A stretch of 64,000 nt of DNA from Halobaculum halobium (GTDB lineage: Archaea > Halobacteriota > Halobacteria > Halobacteriales > Haloferacaceae). Location: positions 2,170,001 through 2,234,000 of the forward strand of contig NZ_CP126158.1 in NCBI RefSeq assembly GCF_030127145.1, written 5' to 3'. The notes beneath the pieces were generated by a model, which saw only the letters and a program-made list of their open reading frames with translations, was not told where the DNA came from and did not search any database. This document shows, piece by piece, positions 49,369-54,341 of this stretch (positions within the stretch are counted from its first letter, which is position 1; each line of letters opens with the position of its first letter). The position numbers and the translations under genes were made by a program.

Positions 49369-49530
49369 ACGCACGTCATCGGCGGCGACGTGTAAGACGG
49401 CTTGGGCCGCGACACCGCCGACCGCGCCCCGGAGTCCGACTCCGCCGGTCACACGTCCGTCAGACGTGCGGCGGTACTCGCCGCGATCCGTGGGGTAGAT
49501 TGATATGGGTCCTGTCGAAATGGCCCGGGT

Positions 49531-50217
49531 ATGAGTAAGATAACCTTCCGCGCGGACGCGGACCTCGTCGACCGCCTCGAGGAGCTCGAGGGGTCGAAGA
49601 GCGAGGTCATGCGGGAGGCGCTCCGCGAGTACCTCGACGCCACCGAGGCGCGGAGCGACGACGCCGTCGACGCCGACGGTGGCGGCCGGACGGCGTCCGG
49701 AACCGACGCGAGGAGTTCGCTCGACGACGCGCTCGCGGCCCGCGTCGACGAGCTGGTGACGGCCCGGCTCGACGCGGAGTTCGGCGAGCGCAGCCGTGGA
49801 CCCGGTGGGTCCGCGGATCGATCCCATGTGTTCGGGGCCCTGAACGCCGCTGAGGACCGCGTCCCGTCGGTGAACCTCACGGTGACCGTCGACGGCGGGG
49901 GGGCGACGGTCGAGGGGCCCACGGGTGCAGAGCAGCCGAGGGTACCGGAGGCGGACCGGGCGATGACAGCGAACGAGCGATCGGGTTCGGAGGCGAGCCC
50001 CGCGAGCGAGACGGGTGCGGCGTCGGACACCGAGTCGCGGAGCTGCGCGCAGTGCGGCGGGGACGTGTCCGACGATCACGTGTTCTGTCCGAACTGCGGA
50101 GAGAAGGCGACCCGGCGGCTGTTCTGTGAGTGCGGCGACGAGGTCCGCTCCGACTGGGGCTTTTGCCCCGGCTGCGGCCGTCGGACGCCGGCCGCAGACG
50201 TGCTCGACGCGCCGTAA
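49531..50217 (+). CDS. cdrL: CdrL-like regulator: ribbon-helix-helix plus zinc ribbons
   Basis: The 228-residue protein starts with a ribbon-helix-helix DNA-binding domain (SKITFRADADLVDRLEELEG, SEVMREALREYL). An acidic, disordered middle of about 110 residues follows, then a C-terminal double zinc ribbon with CAQCGGDVSDDHVFCPNCG and CECGDEVRSDWGFCPGCG. It lies directly before cdrS and ftsZ2, where CdrL is placed in other haloarchaea. There it is reported to bind the cdrS promoter and regulate cell division. The name rests on domain order and position. Several GTAAGAC sites surround the gene. Confidence 0.85.
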   Translation: MSKITFRADADLVDRLEELEGSKSEVMREALREYLDATEARSDDAVDADGGGRTASGTDARSSLDDALAARVDELVTARLDAEFGERSRGPGGSADRSHVFGALNAAEDRVPSVNLTVTVDGGGATVEGPTGAEQPRVPEADRAMTANERSGSEASPASETGAASDTESRSCAQCGGDVSDDHVFCPNCGEKATRRLFCECGDEVRSDWGFCPGCGRRTPAADVLDAP

Positions 50218-50432
50218 GACACCGCGTCGATTCCGTGATTCGCGTCGACCGGCGTAAGACAATTCGACCGCGCCGGTCATACAACCGCCGGTATATTTAT
50301 ATACAAACGGTATATTGGTAGTGGTGCGTAAGACGGCTTGTCTTACAGGCGAGGTCGGAGCGGGGAAACTCCGGCAGCCGACCTGTGAGGGCACGTACGT
50401 GCGTGTCGTCGTCTTACCGGGGGAATGATACA
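50214..50432 (+). promoter_or_regulatory. Control region and structured leader of cdrS-ftsZ2
   Basis: The 215 bases between cdrL and cdrS are packed with dyads. gtaagac occurs at 50214, 50254 and 50328 and its complement gtcttac at 50340 and 50411; the pair 50328/50340 forms a 7-base inverted repeat. A palindromic TATA cluster (gtatatttatatac, 50291-50304) precedes a second box tatattgg (50311-50318). Downstream, aggtcgg/ccgacct (50352-50384) can form a hairpin and gcacgtacgtgc (50391-50402) is a palindrome. If transcription starts near 50335 the message has a leader of about 90 bases, long for a haloarchaeon. Purine-rich ggggg before the ATG may serve as ribosome site. Confidence 0.6.
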
Positions 50433-50624
50433 ATGGAGCGTGTGACACTACGAATCCCGAAACAGCAGATCGAGGAGGTCGAACAGATGGTCGAGACGGG
50501 GGAGTTCCCGAATCGCAGCGAGGCGATTCGGTCCGCCGTCCGCGACATGCTCAACGAGCAGGCCGACACGTCCGGCGAGCGCACGCGCGGCGAGCGCAGT
50601 AAGCGCAGCTGGGCCAAGGTGTAA
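50433..50624 (+). CDS. cdrS: CdrS: short ribbon-helix-helix cell-division regulator
   Basis: The ATG at 50433 gives 63 residues: a single ribbon-helix-helix domain ([38 protein letters not shown]) with a basic tail. In Halobacterium and Haloferax, CdrS is a small transcription factor that controls division genes and is cotranscribed with ftsZ2, the gene that follows here after two bases. An ATG upstream in frame would add 16 residues unlike any RHH protein, so the shorter start is preferred. Confidence 0.9.
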
Positions 50625-50626
50625 CG

Positions 50627-51832
50627 ATGCAGGACATCGTTCAGGACGCGCTCGCGAACGCGGAGGCCGAGCAGCGCGACATGTCTGAGGTCGCCGACGA
50701 CGACGACGAGTTCGGGGAGCCCCGGATCGTCATCGTCGGCGCGGGCGGCGCGGGGAACAACACCATCAATCGGCTGTACAACATCGGCGTCGACGGCGCG
50801 GAGACCGTCGCGATCAACACCGACAAGCAGCACCTCAAGATGATCGAGGCCGACACGAAGATCCTCGTCGGCAAGTCCCTGACGCAGGGGCTGGGCGCGG
50901 GGGGCGACCCCTCGATGGGCGAGCGCGCCACCGAGATGGCGCAGGGCACGATCAAGGAGGTGCTCGGCGACGCGGACCTCGTGTTCGTCACCGCCGGCAT
51001 GGGCGGCGGGACGGGCACCGGCGCGGCGCCGGTCGTCTCGAAGATCGCCAAAGAGCAGGGCGCCATCGTCGTCGGGATGGTGTCGACGCCGTTCAACGTC
51101 GAGCGCGCCCGCACGGTGAAAGCCGAGGAGGGCCTGGAGAACCTCCGCAACGAGGCCGACTCGATCATCGTCCTCGACAACAACCGGCTCCTCGATTACG
51201 TCCCGAACCTGCCGATCGGGAAGGCGTTCTCGGTGATGGACCAGATCATCGCCGAGACGGTCAAGGGCATCTCCGAGACCATCACCCAGCCGTCCCTGAT
51301 CAACCTGGACTACGCGGACATGTCCACGATCATGAACCAGGGCGGCGTCGCGGTGATGCTCGTCGGGGAGACCCAGGACAAGAACAAGACCCAAGAGGTC
51401 GTCAACGACGCGATGAACCACCCGCTGCTGGACGTCGACTACCGCGGCGCGTCCGGCGGGCTGGTCCACATCACCGGCGGCCCGGACCTCACGCTGAAGG
51501 AGGCCGAGGGCATCGCCGACAACATCACCGAGCGCCTCGAGGCGAGCGCGAACGTGATCTGGGGCGCCCGCATCCAGGAGGAGTACAAGGGCAAGGTCCG
51601 CGTCATGGCCATCATGACCGGCGTCCAGAGCGCGCAGGTGCTGGGCCCGAGCACCCAAAAGCAGGCCGACAAGTCGCGCGCGTCCATCGAGGGCGGGCCG
51701 GCCGACGACGTCGACTTCGACGCGAAGTCGAACGCCAAGAGCGCCCAGAACGGGCAGGAAGCGGCCTGGCAGTCCGACGGCGGTCGCAAACAGCAGAGCG
51801 AGCGGAACAACGGCCTCGACGTCATCCGCTGA
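50627..51832 (+). CDS. ftsZ2: Cell-division GTPase FtsZ (FtsZ2)
   Basis: The 401-residue protein carries the tubulin/FtsZ signature GGGTGTG near residue 127, an N-terminal [18 protein letters not shown], and the synergy-loop region ([17 protein letters not shown]) with the catalytic aspartate. The C-terminal tail is acidic and polar. It polymerises at midcell; haloarchaea have two division FtsZs, and position after cdrS marks this one as FtsZ2, needed for constriction. The two genes are separated by two bases, so they are cotranscribed. Confidence 0.95.
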
Positions 51833-53643: not shown

Positions 53644-53693
53644 CGCCGCCGCGGACGCGTAAGACGCTTTGTCGCGGGCGACCCACTCGGGGT

Positions 53694-54341
53694 ATGGAGC
53701 GAGAGGCGGCCCTCGACCGCGTGGAGGCGATCATCGACGCCGTCGACGAGGGGCCGATGCCGGTTCCGGTCCGCGAGGTGTGGGTGTACGGCGACGTGGC
53801 GCTCGGCTTGGACCCGATCGACCGACTGGACGTGTACGTCACAAAGGACTTACTGATGCGCAGTGGGGACGCCGACGCGGCCGCGGAGTTCGAGCGGTCC
53901 CACGGCCTCAAGGGCGTCGGAAAGTCGATTTCAGCGGAGTGGGCTCGTGCGCACCCCGAACACCTCCGTGGGAACGACAACGGGTACGCGGCCCCCGAGA
54001 AGTGCCTCGCGGCACAGCTGCTTCCCGAGGACGAACCGATTCACCTGGAGGTGTGTAACGCGCCGTTCGACCAGAACGTGAAACAGCGGTTGCGGGGGGC
54101 GCTCGACCGCGGGGCGTACGAGCAGGTGCTCGACCCGCGCGGGGTCCAACTGTACGGCGAGGGGCAGCGGGCGACCGAGACGATGGCGAAGCTCCGGAAC
54201 GGGGAGCTTCCATTCCCGACGCTGTCGGGGGCGCTTGAAATGCTCGGCGTCGACGAGGCGACGGCCGGGGAGGTCGTGGACGCCGTGGAGTCGTACCGCG
54301 ATCGCCAGGAGGGATCGACCGTCCGCGGCGACGTGGTCTAA
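53694..54341 (+). CDS. DUF7095-like protein
   Basis: The 215-residue protein starts MEREAALDRVEAIIDAVDEG. The segment PVREVWVYGDVALGLDPIDR recalls the glycine-serine helix of nucleotidyltransferases, and DRLDVYVTKD may supply two acids, but the GS motif itself is absent. HLEVCNAPFDQNVKQRLRGA follows in the second half. DUF7095 is my best family guess; the biochemistry is unknown. A gtaagac motif lies 29-35 bases before the ATG. The gene is on the same strand as DUF4442, 50 bases after it. Confidence 0.65.
   Translation: MEREAALDRVEAIIDAVDEGPMPVPVREVWVYGDVALGLDPIDRLDVYVTKDLLMRSGDADAAAEFERSHGLKGVGKSISAEWARAHPEHLRGNDNGYAAPEKCLAAQLLPEDEPIHLEVCNAPFDQNVKQRLRGALDRGAYEQVLDPRGVQLYGEGQRATETMAKLRNGELPFPTLSGALEMLGVDEATAGEVVDAVESYRDRQEGSTVRGDVV

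Follow-up and report, generated by a model that had tools for sequence, protein, structure and literature searches.

The promoter of the cell-division operon cdrS-ftsZ2 of Halobaculum halobium carries repeated copies of the word GTAAGAC, which we take, with a probability of about 0.75, to be a multi-site operator controlling this promoter, with CdrL as the most likely binder, repressing or capping the operon. The sequence-only reading had suggested that CdrL, CdrS or some other regulator of division binds these sites. This proposal is supported by the presence of the word in 127/127 haloarchaeal cdrS promoters and of one palindrome per genome, and both the ChIP literature and the different word of CdrS favor CdrL over CdrS.

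GTAAGAC boxes at the cdrL-cdrS-ftsZ2 locus

The analyzed stretch of H. halobium DNA (the window) spans 64,000 nucleotides. Inspection of its sequence confirmed all six GTAAGAC sites listed earlier (49392+, 50214+, 50254+, 50328+, 50340− and 50411−), as well as the 13-mer GTAAGACGGCTTG proposed to precede both cdrL and cdrS, which was found at 49392 and 50328. The 50328+/50340− pair, overlooked in the first reading, builds a perfect palindrome, GTAAGAC-N5-GTCTTAC. The features of the locus are as follows.

49392..49398, + strand: GTAAGAC box (TGTAAGACG) preceding the cdrL ATG by 139 bp, next to the start of a divergent aldo/keto reductase gene
49531..50217, + strand: cdrL, with an N-terminal ribbon-helix-helix and a C-terminal double zinc ribbon (Pfam RHH_1 and DZR above cut-off)
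50214..50220, + strand: GTAAGAC box (CGTAAGACA) overlapping the cdrL stop codon
50254..50260, + strand: GTAAGAC box ahead of the TATA element, 74 bp from where the palindrome begins
50292..50303, + strand: TATA element (TATATTTATATA) of the cdrS-ftsZ2 promoter, as read from the sequence
50328..50346, no strand: GTAAGAC-GGCTT-GTCTTAC, the core palindrome, which coincides with or closely follows the predicted start of transcription
50411..50417, − strand: GTCTTAC box within the 5' leader of cdrS, 22 bp ahead of its ATG
50433..50624, + strand: cdrS, ribbon-helix-helix regulator (MERVTLRIP; Pfam RHH_1)
50627..51832, + strand: ftsZ2, two bases after cdrS (Pfam Tubulin and FtsZ_C)

Transcription of cdrS-ftsZ2 is predicted to start at ~50325-50330; a TATA box and a 5' UTR have been reported for the H. 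volcanii cdrS gene (PMC8406309). CdrS shows 100% identity to its counterparts in H. gomorrense and H. saliterrae, and the box at the cdrL stop codon occupies the same place in three other Halobaculum loci. Members of the Halobaculum/Halobonum clade (L014-L018) have a box upstream of cdrL, at 74-169 bp from the gene, which was seen in none of the other lineages examined; this extra copy may have added a lineage-specific autoregulation of cdrL. Besides, Haloferax elongans (L111) harbors a further gene resembling ftsZ2 (82% identity to the query), whose flanks contain neither cdrS nor a GTAAGAC or GTCAGAC box.

The chance rate assumed initially, one 7-mer per 8 kb, proved too high, as dinucleotide shuffling of the window yielded 2.46 GTAAGAC per 64 kb and the whole Halobaculum genome (3,459,201 bases) holds 50 copies, compared with 95 of the reversed control word. 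This genome-wide count, which could have revealed an equally frequent word, thus left the proposal standing. Clustering is indeed far from chance, since five of the six sites lie within 204 bp, with a probability of ~1e-10 at genome density when all copies are considered. The window also contains a seventh copy at 53659+, beyond the six first listed. It reads CGTAAGACGCTT (53659-53665) and lies ~32 bp before a DUF7095 gene (53691-54341), the orthologue of which is preceded by GTAAGAC at ~35 bp in two other Halobaculum species (L239 and L240), making this gene a possible second target in the genus.

Conservation and geometry of the array in Halobacteria

The region was then compared across other haloarchaea, using 80 named cdrS loci spread over Halobacteria and further loci that together yielded 127 distinct 250-bp upstream sequences. 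GTAAGAC occurred in every one of them, totaling 572 copies (~4.5 per 250 bp), with at least three copies in 125/127. It ranked first among 7-mers by every count, and the closest runners-up were shifts of the same word. Forward copies are preceded by Y in 98% of cases and followed by R in ~99%, which renders the consensus YGTAAGACR. The usual layout with respect to the cdrS ATG comprises a box at about −170, the palindrome at about −104 to −130, a forward copy at about −50 in most loci and an inverted copy at about −22, the latter being found between −19 and −32 in 79/80 loci. The boxes therefore form a short word repeated near a promoter, above chance and kept across species, as expected of a multi-box protein operator. 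Three deep-branching small-genome haloarchaea (L145-L147) keep the palindrome and the upstream box and lack the leader boxes, in place of which they have in common a GCGTGTGACA...TCACGCG-like hairpin upstream of cdrS.

The palindrome starts 32-35 bp past the start of the TATA element in 104/119 loci, an arrangement in which it would coincide with, or closely follow, the predicted transcription start. Its spacer measures 4 bp in 89 of these 119 loci, so that the core boxes are 11 bp apart, and 5, 2, 3 or 6 bp in 21, 6, 2 and 1 loci, respectively. In most Halobacteria, 51-53, 61-65 or 73-74 bp separate the upstream box from the palindrome, and the orientation of this box varies between lineages. 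These wider spacings (52, 62-65 and 74) could fit whole helical turns, but the apparent 10.5-bp phasing in the class is dominated by one distance.

A perfect palindrome with a gap of 0-30 bp occurs only once in the Halobaculum genome, where no near-match elsewhere had fewer than 2 mismatches. N5 palindromes with up to 3 mismatches numbered 28, exactly as for the reversed control (28), which argues against a second operator of this form in the genome. With spacers of 3-7 bp, the palindrome was identified in 374/391 Halobacteria genomes, almost always exactly once; it is thus as genome-specific as CdrL binding, which maps to one locus. Two genomes (G240 and G363) have two palindromes each. Of the 17 exceptional genomes, 14 retain an altered array and three (G348, G230 and G362) show no cdrS locus in the assembly. 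Family f9 has an N2 spacer, genus g17 has GTCATAC as one arm, and ATCTTAC or GTGAGAC arms occur elsewhere; genus g3 displays three direct repeats, GTATGAC-N3-GTAAGAC-N3-GTATGAC, in 10-bp steps.

A further copy of the box is encoded within cdrL itself. The tripeptide RKT appears in 48/80 CdrL genes, within the otherwise unconserved linker preceding the zinc ribbon (e.g., in L043, at about −439 from the cdrS ATG). Among 55 RKT coding sequences, 50 read CGTAAGAC[A/G] and 5 read CGTAAAACG, and none uses CGC, CGG or CGA for Arg. This Arg is always CGT though CGT accounts for only 146/1654 Arg codons in ftsZ2 (9%), which ruled out a conserved peptide as the origin of the internal copy. GTAAGAC, flanking Y and R included, therefore appears to be under selection as DNA within the cdrL coding sequence.

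The likely CdrS word and the outgroup arrays

ChIP-seq of H. volcanii CdrS revealed 18 sites with a symmetric motif, including those upstream of ftsZ1 (−50), dacZ (−47) and hisB/HVO_2987 (−76/−42), and the cdrS promoter is absent from these targets (PMC8406309); panA, psmB and cdc48d also belong to them. The list was obtained with plasmid-borne, FLAG-tagged CdrS (PMC8406309), and might have missed the own promoter of CdrS. As the published motif is available only as a figure, we inspected the related Haloferax targets for the word. The ftsZ1 upstream regions carry GTC[A/G]GAC-N4-GTCTGAC, sometimes with GTCGGAC, centered ~58 bp before the ATG. A search with GTCNGAC-N4-GTCNGAC returned ftsZ1 and, unprompted, hisB (identified by Pfam IGPD; centered 79 bp before the ATG) in several Haloferax, and the reversed control gave no hits. 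Similarly, a single GTCAGAC box is located ~48 bp before the dacZ ATG in 7/7 Haloferax examined. Since the ChIP targets ftsZ1, hisB and dacZ all carry GTCAGAC or a one-base variant, this is most likely the word that CdrS reads. It differs from GTAAGAC by one base, and both words share the 11-bp step. The boxes of the window do not match it, having A rather than C as third base in all copies. The corresponding sites of Halobaculum are more degenerate, that is, GTCTGAC-N4-GCAAGAC at ftsZ1 and GCAAGAC-N4-GCATGAC or GCACGAC at dacZ. GTCNGAC palindromes were also noticed upstream of a conserved MGLTCRLLGHSYGD protein and a P-loop ATPase-like gene in Haloferax (L217, L218 and L223) and Halobaculum (L220), and these genes are candidate further CdrS targets.

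As outgroups, we took 20 loci from non-Halobacteria of this phylum, in which ftsZ2 follows cdrS and the locus lacks a CdrL-like gene. Their cdrS promoters contain 36 copies of GTCAGAC, distributed over 19/20 loci, versus a single copy of GTAAGAC. When one mismatch was allowed, pairwise distances between boxes were exact multiples of 11 bp in 111/128 cases; the outgroup arrays thus have a fixed helical spacing. In one sample of genomes, the GTAAGAC palindrome was found in 31/33 Halobacteria and in 1/164 others; in the sole genome outside the class (G451, with an N2 spacer) it is not at cdrS. CdrL is reported to be confined to Halobacteria (PMC7439475). Hence, the GTAAGAC operator is present with CdrL and absent without it, CdrL absence having been checked at the outgroup cdrS loci and taken from that publication for whole genomes, and this amounts to one evolutionary contrast. 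Together, the outgroup GTCAGAC arrays and the confinement of CdrL to Halobacteria indicate that the array is older than CdrL and that its word changed when CdrL arrived.

CdrL as the likely reader of the operator

In Halobacterium salinarum, CdrL ChIP-seq produced one reproducible peak, upstream of cdrS-ftsZ2 (PMC7439475). This only reproducible peak makes CdrL the best candidate binder, and the once-per-genome palindrome matches it, with an agreement that holds at the promoter-region level and a peak that comes from another genus. CdrL and the boxes are universal together in Halobacteria, the contrast with the outgroups being one evolutionary event. Binding of CdrL to the exact boxes and the stoichiometry of its dimers are presumed here, as is CdrL repression of cdrS-ftsZ2; the published cdrL deletion carried second-site mutations (PMC7439475). 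Our working model is that one CdrL dimer would sit on each box, with two dimers nucleating on the palindrome where transcription begins and further dimers occupying the leader boxes as well as the one that precedes the TATA element. Dimers on both sides of the TATA element would bracket the basal factors, and such bracketing would repress or cap expression of the division operon.

The boxes could instead be bound by CdrS itself, in a probably ancestral autoregulation of cdrS-ftsZ2 that tolerates both GTAAGAC and GTCAGAC. CdrS sites indeed have the same geometry, two 7-mers 11 bp apart, with one base different, and CdrS is the obvious candidate reader of the GTCAGAC arrays in the cdrS promoters of outgroups devoid of CdrL. 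However, the 18 H. volcanii targets omit the cdrS promoter despite its 4-5 perfect boxes in Haloferax, and the two words are strictly separate, with 572 GTAAGAC versus 21 GTCAGAC in haloarchaeal cdrS promoters. Given that its targets carry GTCAGAC and its own promoter is off the target list, we regard CdrS as an unlikely reader. Even lower is the probability that we assign to a mixed CdrS-CdrL dimer on each asymmetric box, in which CdrS would read the GTC/GAC half and CdrL the changed GTA/TAC half. This reading accommodates that GTC-N-GAC is two-fold symmetric and GTA-A-GAC is altered in one half only, along with the one difference at the presumed DNA-facing strand, Arg3 in CdrS versus Lys3 in CdrL; nonetheless, CdrS ChIP-seq did not report the cdrS promoter and the two proteins are not known to associate. 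Symmetric ribbon-helix-helix dimers, such as the omega repressor, do read asymmetric boxes, which further counts against mixed dimers. Because the tie of the boxes to CdrL is indirect, some other DNA-binding protein might also be envisaged, but CdrL is adjacent, universal in Halobacteria and has its only reproducible ChIP peak at the cdrS promoter, to which the palindrome is likewise nearly unique, rendering such a protein very improbable.

Equally remote is an explanation at the RNA level, whereby the repeats would be the arms of hairpins in the cdrS leader, acting as a riboregulator or processing signal. The box arms are complementary, the leader folds better than its shuffles (z −3.3) and the segment between the boxes forms hairpins of its own (mean z −2.1). 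Against this, some boxes are located ahead of the TATA element, within cdrL or before that gene, the orientation of the upstream box differs by lineage, the word is invariant instead of covarying, and an Rfam search gave no match. Moreover, direct repeats that cannot pair replace the palindrome in G014, G314 and G317 (L134-L136), which ruled out the hairpin as the conserved feature and identifies a DNA site as the conserved property. The leader between the boxes (50347-50410 in the window) does form stable hairpins in many lineages, with the mean z of −2.1 given above, and neither an RNAalifold consensus nor an Rfam match was obtained for this segment; a structured leader may exist alongside the DNA operator.

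With CdrL as the preferred reader, the outgroup arrays invite an account of how the two words diverged. In all 128 haloarchaeal and all 20 outgroup loci, CdrS starts with M-x-R-[VI]-T-[LI]-R, and it aligns with NikR at the presumed DNA-facing strand. The equivalent CdrL strand, KITFR, has Lys at position 3, the first R of CdrS, in every CdrL examined, deepest branches included. In ribbon-helix-helix proteins, alternate residues of the N-terminal strand face DNA. The Lys3/Arg3 difference, placed beside the one-base difference between the boxes, is at most suggestive of a link in specificity, as it reflects one event. We tentatively propose, at slightly less than even odds, a hand-over in which CdrS, prior to the rise of Halobacteria, repressed or tuned its own operon via two-fold symmetric GTCNGAC boxes at 11-bp steps; with the arrival of CdrL, GTCAGAC would have become GTAAGAC at this single promoter, CdrL, with Lys for Arg, would have taken cdrS-ftsZ2, and CdrS would have kept ftsZ1, dacZ and hisB. 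In Halobacteria, each box would thus have exchanged C for A in only one of its halves. If true, one base per box insulates two related archaeal cell-division regulators, an example of how such proteins can be kept apart while a major class of archaea emerges.

Comparison with known systems

The cdrL-cdrS-ftsZ2 unit and the CdrL ChIP peak were already known. The unit described in Hbt. salinarum (Darnell et al. 2020, PMC7439475) has the same gene order, with the CdrL peak upstream of cdrS; the main text of that work offers no motif (0 occurrences of the word), and the boxes, the palindrome and their cross-species conservation are added by the present analysis. The H. volcanii CdrS regulon (Liao et al. 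2021, PMC8406309) is alike in its 18-bp symmetric two-box geometry, and its ftsZ1, dacZ and hisB targets were recovered here with GTCAGAC boxes, but it differs in the box itself, GTCAGAC rather than GTAAGAC, and in that the cdrS promoter is not a target. Our search of the open-access literature found nothing relevant on GTAAGAC with archaea; neither the precise boxes and their near-universal occurrence nor the palindrome unique to each genome turned up in it, and the same holds for the word of CdrS, the older GTCAGAC array with its 11-bp step and the proposed hand-over. Little is known of how archaea control their division, and in the literature searched CdrL had a ChIP peak without a defined site. 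The present analysis supplies boxes that are exact and near-universal, a palindrome found once in the genome, a candidate word for CdrS and a one-base/one-residue specificity hypothesis. Bacterial tandem ribbon-helix-helix operators, that is, the met boxes of MetJ, those of Arc and NikR, and the omega repressor heptads, consist of ~7-8 bp boxes in direct or inverted orientation, helix-phased and bound by small dimers. Compared with them, the cdrS array is set apart by its archaeal promoter, its cell-division target, the zinc-ribbon tail of CdrL and the presence of two ribbon-helix-helix proteins whose apparent words are one base apart.
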